Assembly (NCBI GenBank): GCA_040755395.1
Contig: JBFMAX010000006.1
Coordinates: 1-64,000, forward strand
Origin: Nitrospirota bacterium
GTDB lineage: Bacteria > Nitrospirota > Nitrospiria > Nitrospirales > Nitrospiraceae
Length of the DNA: 64,000 bases
Reading direction: 5' to 3'
Shown: positions 21,032-35,004 of the stretch, in pieces
How the letters are laid out: the number at the start of each line of letters is the position of its first letter
Position numbering within the stretch: the first letter of the stretch is position 1
Made by a program: the position numbers and the translations under genes
The notes under the pieces: model-generated
Database searches by the model: none
What the model was told of the DNA's origin: nothing
Seen by the model: only the letters and a program-made list of their open reading frames with translations

Positions 21032-22369
21032 ATGCGCGTCGGTGTGCCGCAGCCTCGAATCCGCGCGCTCCTTCGGCGGATGTGCGCGGCTGCGCTCTCG
21101 GCGGTGGACCCGGCCGAGGCGGTCCGCCGCCATGTGAGACGGAAAGGGGCGACACTCCGGGTCGGTCGACGGACCTACGACCTCCGGCGCGATACCCGTA
21201 TCCTTGCGGTCGGAGCCGGCAAGGCGTCCGCAAGGATGGCTTGGGCGCTGGAACGAATTCTGGGCGATCGTCTGGACACCGGCCTGGTGGTTGTGAAATA
21301 CGGCCTTGCGGTCCCCACCAGAAAGATCGAGGTTGTGGAAGCCGGCCACCCGGTTCCCGATCGGGCCGGTGAGCGGGCCGCTTCAAAGCTCCGGGCGCTC
21401 GTCGGCGGCCTTGCATCGAACGACCTGCTCATCGTGCTCCTTTCCGGCGGCGCCTCCAGCCTGCTGCCGGCGCCGGTCTCCGGCCTGAGCCTCGCCGATA
21501 AGCAAAAGACATCGCAGTTGCTGCTCAAGAGCGGCGCGACCATTCAAGAGATCAACACGGTCAGAAAACACCTCTCTGCGATCAAAGGGGGGCAACTGGC
21601 AGCCGAGACGCAGGCGCGGGTGGTCAGTCTGATCCTGTCCGATGTGATCGGCGACGATCCGGCCTCCATCGGCTCAGGCCCGACGGCGCCAGATCCGACT
21701 ACATACGCCGAGGCCTGCGCCATCTTGCGGCGCTACGGGATCTGGAAGTCGGTGCCGGCTCCGGTCAGAAGGCACCTTGTCGCGGGGACGGAAGGTCGGG
21801 TTGCGGAGACGCCGAAGCCAGGCGCCTCGATCTTTCATCGCGTGCAGAATCTCCTCATCGGCAACAATCGCGCCGCCGTGGAGGCGGCTGCGGCCGCGGC
21901 GAAAACCGCCGGGATTGCTCCGGTGATTCTGACGACGACGCTGACCGGCGAGGCGCGGGAAGCGGCGAAAGTCTTCGGAGCCATCGCGCGGGAGATCGTG
22001 GCGGATGACAGGCCCGTTCGACGCCCCTGCTGTCTGATCGCCGGAGGAGAACTGACGGTCACCGTTCGGGGAAGCGGGCAGGGTGGACGAGCCCAAGAGT
22101 TCGCGCTGGCCGCGGCGTTGGAGATCGCCGGATTGCCCAAGGTGTGGGTTGCAGGCTTCGCCACGGACGGCACCGATGGGCCGACCGAGGTGGCCGGAGC
22201 AGTAGCGGATGGTGAGACGGCCAGGCGCGCGGCGCGATCGGGGCTGGATGCGGCGCGCGCGCTGCGCGACAATGATGCCTATCCGTTTTTCCAAAAACTG
22301 AGAAGCCACATTGTCACCGGCCCGACCGGCACGAACGTGAACGACTTGTATGTCCTCGTTTCCGTGTAA
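21032..22369 (+). CDS. glycerate 2-kinase (type II, MOFRL family)
   Basis: Phosphorylates glycerate to 2-phosphoglycerate. The 445-residue protein has the N-terminal DUF4147 region (RILAVGAGKAS, VVKYGLAVP, EAGHPVPD, LLIVLLSGGASSLLP, INTVRKHLSAIKGG, SDVIGDDPASIGSGPT). The C-terminal MOFRL domain follows (GGELTVTVRGSGQGGRAQE, TDGTDGPTEVAGAV, VTGPTGTNVNDLYV). The long frame upstream of 21032 lies in the transglycosylase gene. It overlaps the next gene by 20 bases, coupling glycerate kinase with a PEP-synthase-like protein. Confidence 0.93.
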   Translation: MRVGVPQPRIRALLRRMCAAALSAVDPAEAVRRHVRRKGATLRVGRRTYDLRRDTRILAVGAGKASARMAWALERILGDRLDTGLVVVKYGLAVPTRKIEVVEAGHPVPDRAGERAASKLRALVGGLASNDLLIVLLSGGASSLLPAPVSGLSLADKQKTSQLLLKSGATIQEINTVRKHLSAIKGGQLAAETQARVVSLILSDVIGDDPASIGSGPTAPDPTTYAEACAILRRYGIWKSVPAPVRRHLVAGTEGRVAETPKPGASIFHRVQNLLIGNNRAAVEAAAAAAKTAGIAPVILTTTLTGEAREAAKVFGAIAREIVADDRPVRRPCCLIAGGELTVTVRGSGQGGRAQEFALAAALEIAGLPKVWVAGFATDGTDGPTEVAGAVADGETARRAARSGLDAARALRDNDAYPFFQKLRSHIVTGPTGTNVNDLYVLVSV

Positions 22370-25013
22370 TCCCGTCCTCTTGCCTTTGGAGGCCTGTGAA
22401 GACCGCGCGCTGGCCGGTGGAAAGGCGGCCGGATTACGCCGCCTGATCCTTCACGGCTTCCGCGTTCCGTCCGGAATCTGCCTGACGACGGCGCTGTACG
22501 AAGAAGCGCTTGAACGGACGGGGATTCATCTTCGCGATCAGTGGCGCACGCTCCAAACCCTATCCGACCGCGACCGCCCGGCCATGTTGGCCGCCTGCCG
22601 GCAAGCGATCGAGCAGCCGATCCTGCTGCAGCCGATCTTCGAGCGGCTGGCTGCGTCGCTGGACGCGCTGGAAAGGAACAAGCCGGCCGGCGCGGGACGG
22701 CTCTGGGCAGTACGGTCGTCGGCCTCGAGCGAGGATGCGGCGGAGAGATCGTTCGCCGGCGTCTATCGAACGACGCTTGGTGTGACCCGGGATGCGATCC
22801 CGGCCGCTGTGGTCTCCTGCTGGGCTTCCCTGTGGACCGAGACGGCCTTCGCCTACTCCCGCCGCTGGGGAGTGGAAACGGACCCGCCGAAGATGGCGGT
22901 GATCATTCAGCCGCTTCTCTCTCCCATCGCCTCCGGCGTGGCGTTCTCCCAGGATGTGGCGACGGGTCGAACGGACCGCGTGGTGGTCAATGCCGTCTTT
23001 GGTTTGGCTGACTCGCTCGTGGCCGGTCAGATCGTGCCGGACCACTATGTGATCGTCTGCGACGAATCCAAGCGAACGCCGGCGGCCACCGTGGTGGAGC
23101 GTACGATCGCGCAGAAGCCGAGACGGAGAGTGTCCACGGAGACGGGCCTTCATGACGAGCCGGTCGGTGAAGAAGATCGACGCGCGCCGGCCCTTGACGA
23201 ACTGCAGGCGCTGGAGCTGGCGATCCTCGTCAAACGGGTTGAGCGGGTGTTGGGGCAACCGGTCGATGTCGAGTGGGCGATCGATCATCAGGGAATCTGG
23301 CTGCTGCAGGCGAGGTCCCTTCCTCCCGCAGGCACGCCGCCAACCCCGGCATTCGAACCTTGTGAGTGGTCGCGCGCCAATTTCAAGGAGACCATGCCGG
23401 AGTTGCCGAGCCCGTTGGGACTTTCCTTCCTGGACCATTTCATGGACCACCAGATCCTCACACATTATCGGGAGGCGGGCTGCAAGATCCCGAAGAGCGC
23501 AAAGGCGGTGCGGATCGTGCGAGGGCGTCCCTATATCAACGTGACGTTGTTTCAATCGCTCATGGCGCAACTGGGCGGCGACCCGCGAGATGTCGCCGAA
23601 CAGATGGGCGGGCATGGCGGCGCGCCGCCGGTCGGCGTCGAACGGCTGCCCTGGTGGACACTCCTATGGGCGGGAGGCCTGTTCATGTGGAAGATGCGGC
23701 AGGCCATGCGGCATGCGCCCACCTGGTTTGCCGAGATGAAGCGGATGGCAACCGATCTTCGTGCGGATTCGCTCAAGGGCTTGAGCATAGCGGAACTGCT
23801 TGCGCGAATGGACCGGATCGGAACGCGACTGCGGGAACACGACCTGACCTTCGCGATCGTGGCCGGCGTGGGGCAGGCTTTGCGGACCCTCGGGTTCCTC
23901 TCGTCTCGGGCGATCGGCGAAGGGTGGCGGGGACTGCTGAACGCGGCGTTGCAGGGACAAGGCACGGTCATCAGCGCCAGGCAGATTCTCTGGCTGGCCG
24001 AGCTCGCGGACTGGGCGAGGCAGGAGCGCCCGGCACGGGCGTTTTTTCTCGCCGATCCTTGGACGCCGGTTCGATTCCGGTCCGCCCTGGCCGGCACGCG
24101 GTTCATCGAAGAGTTCGACCGATTTTTGGCGGAATTTGGCCACCGGGCTCTCGGCGAGTCCGACGTGGCCACGCCCCGTTTCAGCGAGAACCCGGACTAT
24201 CTGCTCGGCGTCATCCGGGTGCACCTGCAAGCGACGGGCGGGAAATCGGTCGAGGAGATCCGACGGCAGCAGGAGTCGGCGCGGGAAGCCGCCCTAAGGG
24301 AAATCCGTCGACGAATGGGGTGGCGTCTCCACTACTGGATGGCGTTTCGATGGTGGTACCGGCGACTCTGCCGATTCCTCTCCTTGCGCGAGGCGAACCG
24401 CCACCATCTGATGTATTTTTCCGCCGCCACGCGGCATCTGGCCTTGGCGCTGGGAGAACAGCTCTCGGCAACCGGCGTACTGGACACCCCACACGACATG
24501 TTCTTTCTCGCCGCCGAAGAGATCAGAGCCATCGCGTTGGATCCTTCGCAAGACTGGAAAGGTCTGATCGCCAGACGGCGGGCGGAACGTGCGGAGCATG
24601 CGGCGCATCAGGCGCCGGACACGATACGAGACGACAGGCCGGAAAGAAACAGTGCGGAAAGGAGGCAGCCTCCATCGGCAACGGGCCTCACGCTGAGCGG
24701 GGTCCCCGTTAGCGCAGGTTATGCGGAAGGACCGGTCTGTGTGCTTCTCTCTCCGGACGATTTCAGGAAAGTCAAACGCGGTGACATCATCGTGGCCCCG
24801 GTGATCGACCCCGGCATGGCGCCGGTCTTCAGCCTCGCAGCCGGTCTCGTCGTCGAAATGGGCGGCACGCTGTCCCACGGCGCGATCATCGCCCGCGAAT
24901 ATGGCCTGCCGACGATGGTCAACGTCCCGTATGCGACGAAGTTCCTCACGGACGGCGAGCGCATCGCGGTGGACGCGGGACAAGGCCTCATCCGGCCGCT
25001 TGGGCCGTCATAA
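22350..25013 (+). CDS. PEP synthase / rifampin-phosphotransferase-like three-domain protein
   Basis: An 887-residue protein. Residues about 1-330 are a PPDK/PEP-synthase ATP-binding domain (GGKAAGLRRLILHGFRVPSG, WAVRSSASSEDAAERSFAG, VDVEWAIDHQGIWLLQARS). A long middle region (about 340-760) is unlike the PEP synthase TIM barrel and resembles the substrate-binding domain of rifampin phosphotransferases. The C-terminal swivel domain carries the phospho-His in GTLSHGAIIAREYGLP (His843). There is no PEP/pyruvate barrel after it. This domain order and length match rifampin phosphotransferase-type enzymes, in which ATP beta-phosphate is passed via His. The natural substrate here is unknown. Overlaps glycerate kinase. 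Confidence 0.85.
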   Translation: MSSFPCNPVLLPLEACEDRALAGGKAAGLRRLILHGFRVPSGICLTTALYEEALERTGIHLRDQWRTLQTLSDRDRPAMLAACRQAIEQPILLQPIFERLAASLDALERNKPAGAGRLWAVRSSASSEDAAERSFAGVYRTTLGVTRDAIPAAVVSCWASLWTETAFAYSRRWGVETDPPKMAVIIQPLLSPIASGVAFSQDVATGRTDRVVVNAVFGLADSLVAGQIVPDHYVIVCDESKRTPAATVVERTIAQKPRRRVSTETGLHDEPVGEEDRRAPALDELQALELAILVKRVERVLGQPVDVEWAIDHQGIWLLQARSLPPAGTPPTPAFEPCEWSRANFKETMPELPSPLGLSFLDHFMDHQILTHYREAGCKIPKSAKAVRIVRGRPYINVTLFQSLMAQLGGDPRDVAEQMGGHGGAPPVGVERLPWWTLLWAGGLFMWKMRQAMRHAPTWFAEMKRMATDLRADSLKGLSIAELLARMDRIGTRLREHDLTFAIVAGVGQALRTLGFLSSRAIGEGWRGLLNAALQGQGTVISARQILWLAELADWARQERPARAFFLADPWTPVRFRSALAGTRFIEEFDRFLAEFGHRALGESDVATPRFSENPDYLLGVIRVHLQATGGKSVEEIRRQQESAREAALREIRRRMGWRLHYWMAFRWWYRRLCRFLSLREANRHHLMYFSAATRHLALALGEQLSATGVLDTPHDMFFLAAEEIRAIALDPSQDWKGLIARRRAERAEHAAHQAPDTIRDDRPERNSAERRQPPSATGLTLSGVPVSAGYAEGPVCVLLSPDDFRKVKRGDIIVAPVIDPGMAPVFSLAAGLVVEMGGTLSHGAIIAREYGLPTMVNVPYATKFLTDGERIAVDAGQGLIRPLGPS

Positions 25014-26980: not shown

Positions 26981-28372
26981 ATGTTTGACGTGACCAGCCT
27001 CCTAGCGGGCTTCGCCGCCGGCCTTCTGTTGGGTGCGGCGCTCGCCGGCTTCTGGACCGCGGTGCGGCTCAGCGCACAGACGCACGCGCGCCTGATCGAA
27101 AGCGCAGAGCGGGCCCAGCGGGCGGAGGCGGCGGTCTCCGAGCTTCGTCGCCAATCCGAGCAGGAGCGGACCGAAGTTCAGCGGTTGAGGCAGGAACTGG
27201 CCGAGGCCCAGCAGGCGCGAGCCTCGGCCGAGACGCGCGCGGAAGAAGCCCTGAAGAATCTCCAGGAACAGAAGACGCTGCTCAGCCAGGCCCGGCAGGA
27301 TTTGGTCGAGGCTTTTCAGGCGCTCTCCGGTGAGGCCCTGAAACAGAATAATGAAACCTTCCTGAACCTGGCCAAGACGTCCTTCGAAACTCTGCAGGCG
27401 GAGGCGAAGGGCGAGCTTGCGCAGCGCCAGCAGGCGATTCACGAACTGGTGAAGCCGCTCCAGGACGCCCTCAGACGCTACGAAGAGCAGCTCCACGCGC
27501 TCGAACAATCCCGCCAGTCGGCCTATGGCGGGCTGGACCAGCATCTCAAGCTTCTGGCCGAGTCACAGCAGCGGCTCCAGCAGGAGACCGGCAATCTGGT
27601 CAGAGCCTTGCGGGCGCCGACGGTGCGCGGCCGATGGGGCGAGATCACGCTGAAGCGCGTGGCCGAACTGGCTGGCATGGTCGCCCACTGCGATTTCATC
27701 GAGCAGGACACGGTCGACGGCGAGCAGGGGCGCCTGCGTCCGGACATGGTCGTGCACCTACCCGGCGGCCGGCAGATCGTCGTGGACGCCAAGACGGTGC
27801 TCTCGGTCTATCTGGAGGCCCACGAGGCGCCGGATGATCCGCAACGCCTCGAGCGGCTCAGACGACATGCGGCGCAGGTGCGGGCGCGCATGGACGAGTT
27901 GAGTCTCAAGGCGTACTGGAACCAGTTCCCTCAGGCGCCGGAGTTCGTGGTGTTGTTCCTGCCGGGCGAGCAATTTCTCGGCGCGGCGCTGGAGCAAGAC
28001 CCGACGTTGATCGAAGACGGGTTCGCACGCGGGGTCGTGATCGCGACGCCGACGACGCTCATGGCCCTGCTCCGCGCGGTCGCCTATGGATGGCGGCAGG
28101 AACAGTTGGCGGCGCACGCCGAAGAGGCGGGCCGCCTGGGCAAGGATCTCTACGAGCGGATGGCCGTGCTGGCCGAGCACCTGAACGACGTCGGCCAGGC
28201 GCTGGGGAAAAGCGTGGTCGCCTACAACAAAGCGGTCGGCTCACTGGAGACGAGGATTCTGCCCGCCGCGCGCCGGTTCAAGGAGTTGGGCGTGGCGTCG
28301 GACAAGGAGATCCCTCCGCTGGAGCCGGCCGAGATCGTGCCGCGCAAGTGTCTGCCCGTTGACTCACCATAG
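26981..28372 (+). CDS. rmuC: DNA recombination protein RmuC
   Basis: A 463-residue protein. An N-terminal membrane anchor (LLAGFAAGLLLGAALAGFW) leads into a long coiled coil (residues about 30-130, AERAQRAEAAVSELRRQ...). The RmuC nuclease-like core follows: VRGRWGEITLKRVAELAGM, LPGGRQIVVDAKTVLSVYLEA, PEFVVLFLPGEQFLGAAL, and VIATPTTLMALLRAVAYGW. The family limits DNA rearrangements and its core is related to PD-(D/E)XK nucleases. Start has GGAGG upstream. A palindromic repeat follows directly after the stop. Confidence 0.93.
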   Translation: MFDVTSLLAGFAAGLLLGAALAGFWTAVRLSAQTHARLIESAERAQRAEAAVSELRRQSEQERTEVQRLRQELAEAQQARASAETRAEEALKNLQEQKTLLSQARQDLVEAFQALSGEALKQNNETFLNLAKTSFETLQAEAKGELAQRQQAIHELVKPLQDALRRYEEQLHALEQSRQSAYGGLDQHLKLLAESQQRLQQETGNLVRALRAPTVRGRWGEITLKRVAELAGMVAHCDFIEQDTVDGEQGRLRPDMVVHLPGGRQIVVDAKTVLSVYLEAHEAPDDPQRLERLRRHAAQVRARMDELSLKAYWNQFPQAPEFVVLFLPGEQFLGAALEQDPTLIEDGFARGVVIATPTTLMALLRAVAYGWRQEQLAAHAEEAGRLGKDLYERMAVLAEHLNDVGQALGKSVVAYNKAVGSLETRILPAARRFKELGVASDKEIPPLEPAEIVPRKCLPVDSP

Positions 28373-28829: not shown

Positions 28830-30422
28830 GTGCTGATAGTGTCGACGACCGCGGAAATCCTCCCGAGAACCTTCGTTCACCTCCCAGGAGTCGGCGCAAC
28901 CATAGAACGGGCTTTGTGGCAGACGAGAATTACCTCTTGGGCGAAATTCCTGAAGTCCCCCGCGCCACTTCCTACCTCTCTCCGTGCGAGATCTGAAGTC
29001 CATCGTGTAGTCCATCAATCGCTGGAAGCATTCGATCGCGACGACGCATTCTTCTTTGCAGAGCACCTTCCCCGCGAGGAATGGTGGAGGCTGTATCCGA
29101 GTTTTCAAGCCAAGGCCGTCTTTTTGGACATCGAGACAACAGGGCTCTCCCATTACTACGACGACATCACGCTCGTGGGCCTCTATGACGGGGAACGGGT
29201 GACAACGCTCATCTCCGGGCATAATCTTCATCAACTTAACGACCTGCTCCCGCAATACCAGATTGTCATCACCTTCAACGGCACGCTGTTCGACATTCCG
29301 TTCCTGAAAACCAAGTTTCCCGCCCTGCAATTGCCGCCGATCCATCTCGATCTACGTTACCTGCTGAAAAGGCTTGGATACTCAGGAGGACTGAAACAGA
29401 TTGAGCGGCGCCTCGGACTGAAGAGAAGCAAGGAAGCCGAATCGGTCGATGGACTGATGGCCACGGTCCTGTGGGCACGCTACCTCCGCGGCGATCTCAG
29501 CGCCCTTGAGCGGCTCGTGAAATACAACACGGCGGATGTAACGAGCCTATGGAGCCTCGTTCGGTTTAGCTGCCAGCGGCTCGCAAGCCGACTCCTCAAC
29601 GGAACCGGATTCCCCCGGCAAGAACCTCGTCTTAGACGCCCCAAGCCCGTGCCTGTCCGAGTGTCGATGAATGGGCCAGGCGTCAAGCTGACCGTGGGCG
29701 GTCACAGGCTTGTGTTGAAATCGCGGCCGGGTGAGCGGCCTACAGTCACGCTCAGCAACCTCTTGGCGAGAATGCCCGGCACACTCAGAATGCCGAAGGT
29801 TGTGGGAATCGATCTTCGGGCCTCAGAGGAGCGGCCGACAGGCTGGGCTTTGCTCAAGGGTGAGTGGGCCGAGACGCGGTTGATCAAAACGGATAAGGAC
29901 CTCGTCAAAGAAACAGTCGAGGAGGCTCCCGACATCATCTCGATCGATTCGCCCCTAGGCATTCCCCTTGGGCGATGCTGTACCGAGGAGTCTTGTCCAT
30001 GCCGGGCCGAAGGCATCTTGCGCGAATGCGAGCGAACCCTGTGGAGGCGTGGGGTGAGGGTCTACCCCTGCCTATTGCCAAGCATGCGGAAACTGACAGA
30101 GCGTGGCGTGCGCCTCGCTAGAGAGTTTCGCAAGCGTGGATACACCGTGATCGAGAGCTACCCAGGCGCCGCCCAGGACATTATGCGAATCCCTCGTAAG
30201 CGATCCAGCCTGGAAGACCTCGCCAGAGGCCTGGAGGCATTTGGCATTCGTGGCGCGTTTCTCTCGCAATCCCGTAGCCATGATGAGTTAGATGCCATCA
30301 CGTCGGCGGTGGTCGGATATTTCTTTCTTACAGGAGACTACGAAGCCCTGGGGGATAGTCGCGAAGAATGCTTGATCGTGCCAAAGCTAGACAATCTGGT
30401 AACAGCCATCACATCTCGATAG
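28830..30422 (+). CDS. fused YprB-like RNase H-fold nuclease and DUF429 protein
   Basis: A 530-residue two-domain protein. Residues about 85-245 form a YprB-type 3'-5' exonuclease-like domain with the DEDD series visible: FLDIETTG, TFNGTLFDIPF, LDLRYLLKRLG and YNTADV. Residues about 325-505 form a DUF429 domain, a predicted RNase H-like nuclease: VVGIDLRASE, IISIDSPLG, YPCLLPSM, VIESYPGA and SHDELDAITSA. The N-terminal 80 residues are helical. The start is uncertain between two GTGs (28830 and 28839). It lies 7 bases before the PurZ-like gene and is probably the first gene of that operon. Nucleic-acid substrate unknown. Confidence 0.8.
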   Translation: MLIVSTTAEILPRTFVHLPGVGATIERALWQTRITSWAKFLKSPAPLPTSLRARSEVHRVVHQSLEAFDRDDAFFFAEHLPREEWWRLYPSFQAKAVFLDIETTGLSHYYDDITLVGLYDGERVTTLISGHNLHQLNDLLPQYQIVITFNGTLFDIPFLKTKFPALQLPPIHLDLRYLLKRLGYSGGLKQIERRLGLKRSKEAESVDGLMATVLWARYLRGDLSALERLVKYNTADVTSLWSLVRFSCQRLASRLLNGTGFPRQEPRLRRPKPVPVRVSMNGPGVKLTVGGHRLVLKSRPGERPTVTLSNLLARMPGTLRMPKVVGIDLRASEERPTGWALLKGEWAETRLIKTDKDLVKETVEEAPDIISIDSPLGIPLGRCCTEESCPCRAEGILRECERTLWRRGVRVYPCLLPSMRKLTERGVRLAREFRKRGYTVIESYPGAAQDIMRIPRKRSSLEDLARGLEAFGIRGAFLSQSRSHDELDAITSAVVGYFFLTGDYEALGDSREECLIVPKLDNLVTAITSR

Positions 30423-30429
30423 GCAGGCC

Positions 30430-31476
30430 ATGCCCCTCACCGTTGTAGTCGGTGGACAATACGGCTCCGAGGGCAAAGGCAAAGTTACTTCCTACCTGGC
30501 TCTCCGGGATAACGTCGACATTGTCGTTCGCTGCGGAGGACCGAACTCAGGCCACACGGTCGAAGTCGGCGAGCAGCGTTACGAACTGCGTCTGCTTCCA
30601 TGTGGCTTCATTAATCCCAATACGCGGCTGCTGCTTGCCGCTGGCTCGTTGATCAACGCGGAGATTCTCTTAACCGAGATCAAGGCTGCCGGCGTCGATC
30701 TTCGAAGGGTTGGCGTAGACCGAAATGCGGGAATCATTTCTGGCGATTACGGAGATGAAGAAGCCAGGCTTCTTCTGCGAGATCGTCTTGGTTCCACCCT
30801 GTCAGGAACAGGGATCGCGGTCGCCTATCGTGTGTTGCGAAGAGTGGATTTCAAATTGGCGAAAGACATCCCGGAGTTGCAGCCTTTTCTTACAGATGTG
30901 TCTGCAGAGGTAAACGCAGTGCTGGATAAAGGCGGCAAGGTCCTCATTGAGGGGACGCAAGGCTTCGGCTTATCCGTCTACCATTCGCCGCACTATCCCT
31001 ATGCGACAAGTCGTGACACGACGGCCAGCGGGTTTCTAAGTGAAGTAGGGGTCAGCCCGCGGTTGGTGACCGACATCGTTATGGCAGTCCGGACTTATCC
31101 GATCCGTGTAGCAGGGAATTCTGGTCACCTTGAAAATGAAATCACGTGGGAGGAAGTCCGCCGGCGAAGTGGATATCCAACTGATGTTCGCGAATTCACG
31201 ACGACCACCAAGAAACTGAGAAGGGTCGGTCTATTCAATCTGGAGTTAGTACAGCGAGCTGCGATGGTGAACAGGCCGACTCAGATCGCCCTCCATGGAG
31301 CGGACTATCTTTCATATTCGAACAAGTCAGTTCGCTCGATCGGTGAGCTTGGGAAAAGGTCCATGGACTTCATTGAAGGAATTGTGCAGAGTCTCTGCAT
31401 TCCAGTGACTCTCATTGGAACAGGGCCTGCGAACGAAGAACTCATCGACTGCACGGTTGGATTTAGAAACGTTTAA
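30430..31476 (+). CDS. PurZ-like short adenylosuccinate synthetase homologue
   Basis: A 348-residue PurA-superfamily enzyme, much shorter than housekeeping PurA (about 430). The P-loop reads GGQYGSEGKGK: the catalytic Asp of PurA (GDEGKG) is Ser, the substitution described for phage PurZ, which makes N6-succino-2-amino-2'-deoxyadenylate from dGMP. Retained are the catalytic His (GGPNSGHTV), EGTQGFGLS, YPYATSRDTTASG, RTYPIRVAGNSG and an aspartate-binding loop FTTTTKKLRRVG. So it probably ligates aspartate to a purine 6-oxo group on a substrate other than IMP. Start has AGGCAGGCC upstream. The operon neighbours are nucleases and nucleotide-binding proteins, not purine genes. Confidence 0.85.
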   Translation: MPLTVVVGGQYGSEGKGKVTSYLALRDNVDIVVRCGGPNSGHTVEVGEQRYELRLLPCGFINPNTRLLLAAGSLINAEILLTEIKAAGVDLRRVGVDRNAGIISGDYGDEEARLLLRDRLGSTLSGTGIAVAYRVLRRVDFKLAKDIPELQPFLTDVSAEVNAVLDKGGKVLIEGTQGFGLSVYHSPHYPYATSRDTTASGFLSEVGVSPRLVTDIVMAVRTYPIRVAGNSGHLENEITWEEVRRRSGYPTDVREFTTTTKKLRRVGLFNLELVQRAAMVNRPTQIALHGADYLSYSNKSVRSIGELGKRSMDFIEGIVQSLCIPVTLIGTGPANEELIDCTVGFRNV

Positions 31477-31510
31477 TCGCAGGAGTCTGTTTAGGTCAAG
31501 AAGGAAAGTG

Positions 31511-32530
31511 ATGGCTTTCCAGGATTATCCAGAGCTGGCCACAAACGATTCTGATGCAGAAGCCCGCTTCGGACTCGCCAAGACAACTGACCCTTTCCCT
31601 GAGATCGCGAACGCCCTGCTCAACTCCGCTGATGTCTACGACTATGTCCGCATAACTGGCATGCTGTACCCATTTCATAAAGACAAACTCAAGTCGGGAT
31701 CGTACGAGGCAGCGATCCGTGGGCGATGCCTGTGGTGGGATGAAAACGGAGAACGTCACGAAAAGCTACTGAGCGATGAGAACCAGGATGAGTTCCCATT
31801 GAAGGCCAATTCTATCGCCTTTGTGCAAGTTGAACCTTTCTTCAGGCTCCCCGACTATATAGCGTTACGATTCAATCTGAAGATCACTCATGTCCACCGA
31901 GGAATACTTCTGGGTACAGGCCCGCTGATTGATCCGGGTTTTGTAGGAAGGCTCCTCATCCCACTCCATAACCTGACTACTAATGAATACACCTTCAAGT
32001 GTGGCGAAGGGCTTATATGGATTGAGTTCACGAAGACGAGCCCTCTACCAGGCCATTCTGGAGCAGCAACGAATGCTTTTGGCCTAACGCGACACGGGAA
32101 ATACGTTTCTTTCCCGGAAAGCAAGAAGAATCTGCAGCCAGAGTACTACCTTGTAAAAGCATCTCCGCACAGGTCTATTCGAAGTTCAATACCAGAGGTA
32201 ATACGACGAAGCGAAGAGGATGCAAGGGAGGCCAGGGCGCTCGCCAGGAGAGCACAAGCTCATGTACAGACGCTACAACTTGCAGGAGGGGTTGTCCTTC
32301 TGTTGACATTAGGAGGTCTTGGATATGCAACATGGACGCTTATTCAAGATGCTTGGAAAGCGGTAGCTGACGTTCAGCAACATCTGCACTCTCACGTAGA
32401 GCAGGAGAAGGATCGAACTCGTATTCTCGAGGAGATATTAAGTCGGTATCAATCAACTCTGCAAAGCTCACCGGAAGGCCATACCTCGAAACAAAAGAGA
32501 CTGCAAAAAGATGGAAAGGCACAGCGGTAA
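31511..32530 (+). CDS. membrane-anchored dCTP-deaminase/dUTPase-fold protein, probably inactive
   Basis: A 339-residue protein. Residues about 20-190 follow the Dcd/dUTPase beta fold: SIAFVQVEPFFRLPDYIALRF, GILLGTGPLIDPGFVGRLLIPLHNLT, then CGEGLIWIEF. In deaminases the block after the IDPGFxG turn reads ITLEL with the catalytic Glu; here it is LLIPL, so the Glu is Pro. The GRSSLAR motif is also absent. It is therefore likely a nucleotide binder rather than an enzyme. A transmembrane helix (LAGGVVLLLTLGGLGYATWTLI) and a charged coiled coil (HSHVEQEKDRTRILEEILS) follow. Start ATG 31511 has AAGGAAAG upstream. Thirty-four bases after the PurZ-like gene. Confidence 0.8.
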   Translation: MAFQDYPELATNDSDAEARFGLAKTTDPFPEIANALLNSADVYDYVRITGMLYPFHKDKLKSGSYEAAIRGRCLWWDENGERHEKLLSDENQDEFPLKANSIAFVQVEPFFRLPDYIALRFNLKITHVHRGILLGTGPLIDPGFVGRLLIPLHNLTTNEYTFKCGEGLIWIEFTKTSPLPGHSGAATNAFGLTRHGKYVSFPESKKNLQPEYYLVKASPHRSIRSSIPEVIRRSEEDAREARALARRAQAHVQTLQLAGGVVLLLTLGGLGYATWTLIQDAWKAVADVQQHLHSHVEQEKDRTRILEEILSRYQSTLQSSPEGHTSKQKRLQKDGKAQR

Positions 32531-32663
32531 CCAGGCCCTATTGCATTTTACGGTCAGACCTTGATTGCTTGGCCCCGATCTCGCTGCGCGGGTTTCATTA
32601 CCGAAATGAGATCGTTTCCGTGATTAAAACTTCGCCGGCCACACGGTCGTCCCATTGAAGCTG

Positions 32664-32873
32664 ATGGATCACTTTTTGGTAATTACTGTGGCTGCAATGG
32701 CCATCTTTTTGGGGTATCGATTGTTCGCCATCTTGCCGGTAGAGCGAGACCCGTTCGGCATGATCCATCCTCTTAGCCTAAAAGCGATATGGCCTAGAAT
32801 AGTGCCGGGAGCAGTCCTAGTTCTGTTTGGGATTGGAATGATCATCTGGCATGTCGGCTGGAAATTTTGCTGA
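32664..32873 (+). CDS. small two-helix membrane protein
   Basis: A 69-residue protein with two predicted transmembrane helices (HFLVITVAAMAIFLGYRLFAIL and VPGAVLVLFGIGMIIWHVGW). The ATG at 32664 is preferred to the TTG three codons earlier. It sits between the deaminase-fold gene and the NUDIX gene on the same strand and shares their lower GC. No recognised family; possibly a membrane partner of the anchored deaminase-fold protein. Confidence 0.55.
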   Translation: MDHFLVITVAAMAIFLGYRLFAILPVERDPFGMIHPLSLKAIWPRIVPGAVLVLFGIGMIIWHVGWKFC

Positions 32874-32940
32874 GAGATGACCACCACGTGCGCCGTCCCA
32901 TGAAAACGAGAGTGGCTCTCTAGCATTAACAGAGTAGCAA

Positions 32941-33615
32941 ATGGAACAAATGGTTCTCGTCCTTAAAGTATCTTCATTGCGTGCCCTTGTGGAATTTCAA
33001 GGGTATAGATTGACGACAGAGGAGTGCATGGATCTTCTGCTTCACCCTTTGAACAACCGCTTTGTAGATCGTAAGTCGGCCGAGGAGGATTTCCGTTACA
33101 AGCAATTGATTCCCTATGTTGTGCTTCGCTGCAGAGAGTTGGTCTTCACTTACGTCAGGGGAAAGAAATCGAGCGAATCACGCCTAGTCGCCATGAGATC
33201 AATTGGAGTCGGTGGCCACATTGAACCGACTGACCAAAGCCTGTTCTCGTCGGATCGCGAGATGTACTTGGAGGCAGCGCGGCGAGAGGTGAACGAAGAA
33301 GTCAAGATCGATACGCCCTACGTCGAGCACGTTGTGGCATTGATCAACGACGACTCGACCGACGTGGGCAGAGTCCACCTCGGCATCATGCACATTTGGG
33401 ATTTGGCGGAGCCCAAGGTGACCAAGCGGGAAGGACTGATCACTCAGGCGGGGTTTGTACCGATTACGAGCTTGAAAAGCAAGCTAGACGAGCTCGAAAC
33501 GTGGTCTCAGATCGCACTTCAGGTGCTTGAGGACTGTCGCGTCCCCAGTTGGGAGAAGAACATCGCAAGCCGACTGCGCGTTGCACCTGGGTGCCCTACG
33601 CAGTCAACAGAATGA
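32941..33615 (+). CDS. NUDIX hydrolase (predicted phosphoesterase type)
   Basis: A 224-residue protein. After an N-terminal strand region (QLIPYVVLRCRELVFTYVRGKK) comes GVGGHIEPTD and then YLEAARREVNEEV. Together they make a NUDIX box with an enlarged insert and the REVNEEV metal-binding Glu residues intact. This arrangement matches the predicted phosphoesterase NUDIX group (COG4112 type). A nucleotide or nucleotide-derivative substrate is likely given its neighbours. Its stop overlaps the start of the PilZ gene by ATGA. Confidence 0.8.
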   Translation: MEQMVLVLKVSSLRALVEFQGYRLTTEECMDLLLHPLNNRFVDRKSAEEDFRYKQLIPYVVLRCRELVFTYVRGKKSSESRLVAMRSIGVGGHIEPTDQSLFSSDREMYLEAARREVNEEVKIDTPYVEHVVALINDDSTDVGRVHLGIMHIWDLAEPKVTKREGLITQAGFVPITSLKSKLDELETWSQIALQVLEDCRVPSWEKNIASRLRVAPGCPTQSTE

Positions 33616-34127
33616 GTGCGAGGCCGTCGATGAAGGGCCCCCATTGCCCTCAATGCGGCACCCCGTTTGTCCGCGTGACTCACCATCAGGGTCGCCTGGA
33701 GCCTCTGCTGAGGTGGTTCAGTGTGTATCCGTTCCGTTGCCAGGTCTGCACCAACCGGTTCGTCGCTCTGCGGCGCGGGATCAAAGATGCGACCCAGTCA
33801 TTCGACCGCCGGGAGTACAAACGGCTGCCCACACATTTCCCCGCCGTCTTCGCCGCGAACCAGCTCTCTCTCGACGAGGTCGTGACCGATCTCTCGATGG
33901 GAGGATGTTCCGTGAGAACCACTCAGCCTCTGGCTCGCGGGACGTTCGTGGAGCTCCTGCTGAAGCCGTCCACTCGCGAGCCGGGGATCAAGGTCGAGAC
34001 GGCGATCGTCTGCTGCGTGCGCCCGTCCGCCGTCGGCGTGAAATTCCTCGAAGTCGAGCCTCAAGAGAAAGCCCGTCTCAGTCGGGTGGTCCACAGCCTG
34101 CTCCTCAGCCAGACCGCCGCTCCTTAA
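33612..34127 (+). CDS. zinc-ribbon PilZ-domain protein
   Basis: A 171-residue protein. The N-terminal zinc ribbon is CPQCGTPF ... CQVCTNRF. The PilZ domain has the c-di-GMP motif RREYKRLP (RxxxR type) and the second motif DLSMGGCSVRT (DxSxxG). Both are intact, so c-di-GMP binding is likely. The start overlaps the NUDIX stop, although an internal ATG at 33630 is possible. GC returns to genome level here, so this gene probably belongs to the host backbone. Its 3' end overlaps panC convergently by 23 bases. Confidence 0.8.
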   Translation: MSARPSMKGPHCPQCGTPFVRVTHHQGRLEPLLRWFSVYPFRCQVCTNRFVALRRGIKDATQSFDRREYKRLPTHFPAVFAANQLSLDEVVTDLSMGGCSVRTTQPLARGTFVELLLKPSTREPGIKVETAIVCCVRPSAVGVKFLEVEPQEKARLSRVVHSLLLSQTAAP

Positions 34128-35004
34128 GAACCGTTCGCCCGCCCCTACTTTTTCTCGCCGGAACGGTCACGAGCAGATTGTCGATCAGGCGGACTTTGCC
34201 GATCCTGATCGCGCCCAGCAGTGCGACCGTCCCCGCTGCGCGCCGCAGCGGTTCGAGCGTCCGGGCGTCGCACATGACGAGGTAGTCGATCTGGGCCAGC
34301 GGTTCGGCGGCCACGGTGTCGTGCATGGTTCGGCTGATCTGAACTCCGGACCGGATGCCGGATCGAATGGCGGCCCGCCCCGCTTGAAGGGCCCGATAGA
34401 GGACGGGCGCGGCGCGGCGCTGTGCCGTCGTCAGGTACACGTTGCGGGAACTGAGCGCGAGGCCGTCGGCTTCGCGCACGGTGGGGTGAATGACGACGCT
34501 GACGCCGAGATTCAGGTCCTCAACCAGACGTTGCACAAGCACCGCCTGCTGGTAGTCCTTCTGCCCGAAGACCACCAGGTGCGGTCGCACGAGGCAGAGC
34601 AGTTTCGTCACGACGGTCGCGACGCCTTGAAAGTGGAGCGGGCGCGCAGCCCCTTCCCACCGCCGCGCAAGATCGTGGACCGTGACGGCGGTCTGAAACC
34701 CGGGCGGATACATGGCTGCTCGGCTCGGGGCGAAAAGCACATCGACCCCTTCCTGCGCGCACAGGGCCCGGTCCTGCGCGAATGGCCTCGGGTAGCGGGC
34801 CAGGTCTTCAGCCGGGCCGAATTGCCGCGGGTTGACGAAGAGACTCACAACGAGCGCGTCGCAGGACAGGCGGGCCTTTCGGATCAGCGCGCGATGCCCT
34901 TCATGCAACGCGCCCATGGTCGGCACGAGGCCGATCGTCACGCCTTCGCGGTGGAGCCGGCAGCTCCACATCCCCATCGCCCGAGGAGTTGTGATGATGT
35001 TCAT
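34105..35004 (-). CDS. panC: pantothenate synthetase
   Basis: Joins pantoate and beta-alanine with ATP. The 299-residue protein has the adenylation motifs PTMGALHEGHRALI (HxGH type), SLFVNPRQFGP, FGQKDYQQA and SSRNVYL (KMSKS-equivalent region). It has a basic C-terminal tail. Its start ATGA overlaps the folK stop, so the two vitamin genes form an operon transcribed leftward. Confidence 0.95.
   Translation of the reverse strand: MNIITTPRAMGMWSCRLHREGVTIGLVPTMGALHEGHRALIRKARLSCDALVVSLFVNPRQFGPAEDLARYPRPFAQDRALCAQEGVDVLFAPSRAAMYPPGFQTAVTVHDLARRWEGAARPLHFQGVATVVTKLLCLVRPHLVVFGQKDYQQAVLVQRLVEDLNLGVSVVIHPTVREADGLALSSRNVYLTTAQRRAAPVLYRALQAGRAAIRSGIRSGVQISRTMHDTVAAEPLAQIDYLVMCDARTLEPLRRAAGTVALLGAIRIGKVRLIDNLLVTVPARKSRGGRTVLKERRSG

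Follow-up and report, generated by a model that had tools for sequence, protein, structure and literature searches.

A PurZ-like enzyme gene in a horizontally acquired nucleotide-handling cassette of a Nitrospirota bacterium

PurZ is known from the literature as a phage enzyme with a few archaeal relatives, and a gene of this kind among the housekeeping genes of a Nitrospirota chromosome raises the question of what a PurZ-type protein would do in a bacterial cell. We consider here the window, meaning the whole 64,000-nucleotide stretch of DNA that was analysed, and within it a 348-residue PurA homologue in which a first-pass annotation had read the P-loop as GSEGKG, with Ser where PurA has its catalytic Asp. 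The open reading frame was confirmed, and it lies second among four genes on one strand. The features to which the text refers are as follows.

26981..28372, + strand: rmuC, left flank of the island
28830..30422, + strand: first cassette gene, an RNase_H_2 (DEDD-type exonuclease-like) domain fused to a DUF429 nuclease-like domain
30430..31476, + strand: PurZ-like (2-amino)adenylosuccinate synthetase homologue, ATG start, 348 aa, PF00709 E 3.9e-51
30463..30480, + strand: P-loop GSEGKG, residues 12-17, with the Ser13 codon at 30466-30468 replacing the catalytic Asp13 of PurA
31099..31125, + strand: PIRVAGNSG, residues 224-232, an insertion that includes Val227 (S-2L V241)
31198..31224, + strand: aspartate loop TTTTKKLRR, residues 257-265, with Lys262 at the position of E. 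coli PurA Arg303 (phiVC8 Lys267)
31303..31305, + strand: codon of Asp292, the donor-base Asp, of PurA and PurZ0 type
31508..32530, + strand: DCD-TM, a protein of DCD/dUTPase fold whose C-terminal part holds a transmembrane helix, long helices also being predicted; start GTG 31508 or ATG 31511
32288..32344, + strand: predicted transmembrane segment GVVLLLTLGGLGYATWTLI of DCD-TM (hydropathy)
32941..33615, + strand: Nudix-like hydrolase, motif REVNEEVKI, lacking from the empty sites of relatives
33549-34127, + strand: PilZ-type gene between the island and panC, likewise in empty sites
34105..35004, - strand: panC, right flank of the island

Residues, family models and phylogeny of the PurZ-like protein

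The P-loop serine stands in the context GGQYGSEGKGK. It recurs in G011, the closest genome with a PurZ-like gene and a member of the same family as the source genome (83% identity), and in the Nitrospira sp. MAG contig L034 (83%), and a more distant relative, G277, has Gly at the position (P-loop GGEGKG), so a sequencing error does not account for it. Comparison with the G011 gene (dN 0.126, dS 1.45) indicates that the protein is under constraint. The catalytic His is kept, as had been claimed (His42). The aspartate-binding loop, also claimed as kept, is present, but in its PurZ form TTTTKKLRR, with Lys262 for Arg303. Neither of the residues expected of a PurA (Asp13, Arg303) is found. Mapped onto S-2L PurZ, the protein matches at Ser13 (S23), His42 (H52), Gln177 (Q190), Arg226-Val227 (R240-V241, with the GNSG insertion following PIRV), Thr260 (T276) and Arg264 (R280), and in the alignment the PIRVAGNSG insertion is common to nearly all PurZ-side proteins and missing from PurA. 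S23, V241 and the replacement of Arg303 have been tied to guanine and 2'-deoxy selectivity (Czernecki et al., PMC8342488). The donor-base site differs from that of S-2L and phiVC8 PurZ: Asp292 here, as in PurA and PurZ0, against Gln308 in S-2L and Asn297 in phiVC8.

By model scores the protein falls between curated families, reaching 349.6 bits with the archaeal PurA model NF003295 (cut-off 368) and 227 bits with the NCBI phage PurZ model NF038379 (cut-off 300). A sequence search ranked its solved relatives as Pyrococcus horikoshii PurA (5e-68), PurZ0 (7vf6, 4e-44), phiVC8 PurZ (6fm1, 2e-35) and S-2L PurZ (7odx, 6e-27). Foldseek with the AlphaFold model (pLDDT 93.6) likewise placed archaeal PurA 5k7x first (39% identity, TM 0.92), then PurZ0 7vf6 (33%), with DgsS/PurZ 6fko and 6fm1 (29%) close behind. 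The nearest solved protein by identity and fold score is thus an archaeal PurA and not PurZ0 or PurZ, which, together with the PurA-like Asp292, counts against a PurZ-type reading.

Phylogeny, set beforehand as the test of that reading, gave a different answer. Two maximum-likelihood trees, of 98 rows (IQ-TREE, C20 model) and 40 rows, were built from phage PurZ and PurZ0, 80 IMG/VR relatives, homologues from plasmids and chromosomes, canonical PurAs and a single archaeal PurA. A single branch splits all Asp-type PurA, the one archaeal PurA in the tree included, from all Ser/Gly-type proteins (support 100/99 in the large tree, 100/100 in the small one), and in both trees the window protein lies on the PurZ side, not within archaeal or bacterial PurA. 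Its clade of 13 rows (97/95; 98/94 in the small tree) comprises G011, G277, Sinorhizobium medicae and the viral contigs L065-L083, and forms a third clade outside those of phage PurZ (S-2L, phiVC8) and PurZ0; support for how the clades branch relative to one another on the Ser side is weak. An ordinary archaeal-type PurA, the top database and fold match, is therefore rejected on residues and tree together. The earlier description of the protein as PurZ-like holds in its tree place and in the PurZ residues beyond Ser13, but not in the sense of an ordinary phage PurZ, given the 227 of 300 bits, the position outside the phage clades and Asp292.

A related possibility is a divergent PurA paralogue acting on IMP (or dIMP) as a second adenylosuccinate synthetase. 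The archaeal PurA as closest solved relative, the score just below the archaeal PurA model's cut-off and the retained Asp292 would fit such an enzyme, but the loss of Asp13 to Ser (Gly in G277), the change of Arg303 to Lys, the insertion and the firm placement outside the Asp-PurA clade all speak against it. Moreover, a canonical PurA is already encoded elsewhere in the genome of 74 contigs and 4.1 Mb (C7:83102-84355, 621 bits, GDEGKG), and the PurZ-like gene occurs in only 3 of 296 Nitrospirota genomes; we regard this alternative as unlikely. The assignment to the PurZ-type class is well supported as a prediction from residues and tree, and it is likely that the protein is both of that class and active on (d)GMP.

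Among known enzymes, PurZ0 of Gordonia and Arthrobacter phages (7VF6; PMC12884076) shares with the window protein the P-loop Ser, the GNSG insertion, Lys for Arg303 and the donor-base Asp, and both are encoded alongside a dUTPase-fold partner (DutZ in the phages, DCD-TM here). In contrast to PurZ0, the window protein sits in a separate clade, at 33% identity, on a cellular chromosome; its cassette lacks DutZ, DmtZ and DpoZ, and its partner is membrane-anchored with degenerate motifs. PurZ of S-2L and phiVC8 (7ODX, 6FM1) has the same Ser13, PIRV with its insertion and predicted dGMP pocket residues, and the TKK loop resembles that of phiVC8 in particular; these ATP-using phage enzymes carry Gln or Asn in place of Asp292, are about 29% identical and have DatZ/MazZ neighbours that are lacking here. 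The short archaeal PurA of P. horikoshii (5K7X/2D7U) is alike in length, fold and donor-base Asp, but has Asp13 and Arg303 and lacks the GNSG insertion, and a deep branch with full support divides it from the window protein in the tree. PurZ0 uses GTP. One study, which drew on five previously described PurZ-related sequences and reports four archaeal ones whose catalytic site has Ser or Gly, states that PurZ0 prefers ATP and PurZ prefers GTP (PMC12884076). That assignment contradicts the ATP-bound PurZ structure (6FM1) as well as the GTP use of PurZ0 given above, and may be a slip.

The acquired cassette and its membrane partner

Ten related genomes have 0.6-1.4 kb between rmuC and panC; the corresponding gap is 5.7 kb in the window and 5.2 kb in G011. 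The cassette genes have a GC content of 0.50-0.58 against 0.67 in the flanks, and from these two observations we conclude that the cassette is a horizontally acquired island. A search of the flanks for direct repeats as island borders returned only chance-like matches. A PilZ-type gene is present in the rmuC-panC region of all five related genomes checked. The earlier statement that the gene lies outside a prophage is borne out, albeit within a small island: the flanks are housekeeping genes (rmuC, the PilZ gene, panC, folK), the empty sites of relatives lack the cassette, and prophage origin in situ is ruled out. Two further features of the region may be recorded. The 410-base gap between DCD-TM and the Nudix gene (32531-32940) contains a short inverted repeat (32658-32671/32761-32774), and upstream of the cassette, at 22350-25013, lies a PEP-synthase/rifampicin-phosphotransferase-like protein of 887 aa (PPDK_N and PEP-utilizers), a similar protein preceding rmuC in L034.

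The first-pass annotation had proposed a cellular system, which can now be put more sharply: the gene does not stand alone but belongs to an operon that was acquired horizontally and whose partner genes recur elsewhere. In G277, a distant member of the Nitrospirota from another family, the first three cassette genes occur at a different site and are followed by a deoxynucleoside-kinase-like gene. In a further genome, G017, the nuclease gene is present at the rmuC site as it is here, but the contig ends at that point, and G017 was left out of the cassette count. Of 296 Nitrospirota genomes, the three with a PurZ-like gene are also the three with DCD-TM. On plasmids, DCD-TM was found in 3 of 72,556 records, all from S. 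medicae and each time adjoining a PurZ-like gene (3/3), and it was found in none of 50,697 phage records, with no confirmed match in IMG/VR.

Between the window and G011, identity reaches 83% for the PurZ-like protein, 66% for the RNaseH/DUF429 protein and 70% for the Nudix protein, whereas DCD-TM is only 32% identical to its G011 counterpart (L036:9602-10711) and 47% to that of G277. This disparity suggests that DCD-TM has been replaced or is evolving very fast relative to the other cassette genes. Profile comparison relates it to the archaeal-type 'dCTP deaminase' 8y1w (1.7e-11) and to phage DutZ (hhalign probability 94%). It lacks the motifs that mark a dUTPase or dCTP deaminase: motif I reads SYE/TYL/SYT, the RSS site reads KIT/MIR/RVK and there is no motif V, although Asp142 is kept despite this degeneracy. 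A single-sequence AlphaFold model (pLDDT 43) was set aside. We read DCD-TM as a putative nucleotide-binding, membrane-tethered module.

Relatives on viral contigs and plasmids

Within the window clade, the viral contig L067 brings together a DpoZ-like polymerase, a PurZ with P-loop GSSGKG, DutZ and an HD hydrolase, a gene group that, from its composition, is a Z-type phage cluster.

A second cellular group is found on rhizobial and Methylobacterium plasmids, where an AAA_18 kinase is fused to the PurZ-like protein. The fusion is followed by a DUF7002 gene where this was tested, and nearby lies a YfbR-like HD hydrolase of the DatZ superfamily, scoring below the Pfam cut-off; that HD family occurs in 138 plasmid records and is thus common enough on plasmids not to be specific to PurZ. 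The combination of kinase-PurZ fusion, DUF7002-type gene and HD hydrolase is a candidate defence system of its own. Plasmid cassettes of this second group (L039, L040, L150, L151, L152, L180, L181, L182) often adjoin known defence systems. For example, Gabija GajA/GajB lies beside the cassette of L039 and GajA beside that of L182, SIR2 with DUF87 and AbiE beside L150, and RdrA/RdrB-like (RADAR-like) genes beside L181; BilD adjoins the S. medicae cassette (L037). These neighbours of related cassettes carry the argument for defence; the plasmids concerned are rhizobial, and most of their cassettes belong to another subclade than the window copy. No known defence genes were identified beside the Nitrospirota cassettes; the defence-gene search beside the window copy gave no clear match, the best being a weak one to PDC-S44 (1.4e-5). 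The open-access papers searched described neither a bacterial PurZ-type cassette nor a PurZ-type defence system.

A proposed activity and its alternatives

From its residues, the window protein is predicted to draw on GTP as its donor and to accept dGMP (or GMP), so that the enzyme would most likely convert GTP, dGMP (possibly GMP) and L-aspartate to N6-succino-2-amino-(deoxy)adenylate, GDP and Pi. The Nudix protein would probably supply (d)GMP from (d)GTP, and host PurB, whose gene is present in the genome, would then release 2-amino-(d)AMP ((d)ZMP). DCD-TM probably acts at the membrane, either by binding the product or by sensing an imbalance in the dNTP pool, and a candidate for the effector is the RNase H/DUF429 nuclease. 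Taken together, the four genes may constitute a conflict module, directed against phages or plasmids, that acts through an altered deoxynucleotide. Expression of the S-2L Z-cluster is toxic to E. coli (PMC8342488), and a controlled toxic or signalling nucleotide accordingly fits better than a housekeeping role. We give this reading as a whole, a PurZ-type (d)GMP ligase in a mobile conflict module, a probability of roughly 55%, to be read loosely. Its defence component, taken separately, is tentative, with the odds somewhat against it.

Anti-phage systems that work through the nucleotide pool or through modified nucleotides include depletion by dGTPase and dCTP deaminase, Kongming and CBASS. 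The cassette possibly shares with them the logic of an altered nucleotide pool or signal joined to a membrane partner, but the enzyme family and the partner genes differ. A more specific proposal, which we consider rather doubtful, is that mobile bacterial cassettes use a PurZ-type enzyme to produce a 2-aminoadenine (or succino-) deoxynucleotide, which would serve as an antiviral agent or as a second messenger and be read by a membrane-anchored sensor of dUTPase/DCD fold. If true, this would amount to nucleotide-based anti-phage immunity of a new class, constructed around the enzyme with which phages evade restriction. More broadly, a cellular clade residing in islands and conjugative plasmids with recurring nucleotide-handling partners and, on the plasmids, often near known defence systems would imply that the making or exploitation of 2-aminoadenine nucleotides extends to bacteria, and it bears on the origin of phage PurZ. 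The defence genes beside related plasmid cassettes hint that altered DNA building blocks may be used by bacteria in conflict with viruses. The PurZ-like gene and DCD-TM form a two-gene unit small enough for cloning and assay.

Z might instead replace A in host or plasmid DNA as protection from restriction, through a domesticated phage gene making dZMP. Many relatives do lie on viral contigs with DpoZ-like and DutZ genes, and the rhizobial plasmid cassettes pair a PurZ-like protein with the HD hydrolase and the fused kinase; yet DatZ was found neither in the genome nor in the cassette, and the plasmid HD hydrolase in none of the three Nitrospirota genomes (both searches run without a positive control). 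Both results count against a complete Z-genome pathway. The absence of a DatZ match makes a full Z-DNA pathway in this genome unlikely and leaves any (d)Z nucleotide without an evident dedicated use there, and constitutive substitution is unlikely in view of the Z-cluster toxicity in E. coli (PMC8342488). We accordingly give such a cellular Z-genome little credence.

Less probable still is that the enzyme takes the ribonucleotide GMP and that the resulting 2-amino-AMP, or its succino intermediate, serves as a small-molecule alarm or inhibitor and not as a precursor of DNA. With Ser13 the 2-amino group would be tolerated irrespective of the sugar, the Nudix partner could provide GMP as well as dGMP, and this genome has no known deoxy-specific partner, but Val227 and Lys262 occupy positions tied to 2'-deoxy preference in PurZ (PMC8342488).

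The poorest candidate is an enzyme that tailors a secreted nucleoside or another specialised metabolite, like the PurA homologue of toyocamycin-type clusters: homologues do lie in a toyocamycin-like cluster in Rhizobium leguminosarum (L038) and beside aminotransferase, phosphoribosyltransferase-like and kinase-like genes in Paenibacillus, but in the tree the toyocamycin-type protein falls with the Asp-type PurA proteins, and the Nitrospirota cassette, with its genes for a nuclease, a Nudix protein and a membrane DCD protein, has no biosynthetic or export genes. In Paenibacillus a Nudix gene lies 12 bases upstream of the homologue (L035:5524-8327; GSEGKG, 45% identity), and the neighbouring genes possibly form a biosynthetic cluster. 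The R. leguminosarum plasmid cluster (NZ_CP030762.1, 7375-15715) encodes a short PurA with GDEAKG together with folE, purB, QueE, an IMPDH-like protein, a nitrile hydratase subunit, QueC, a HAD protein, a phosphoribosyltransferase and 6-carboxytetrahydropterin synthase.
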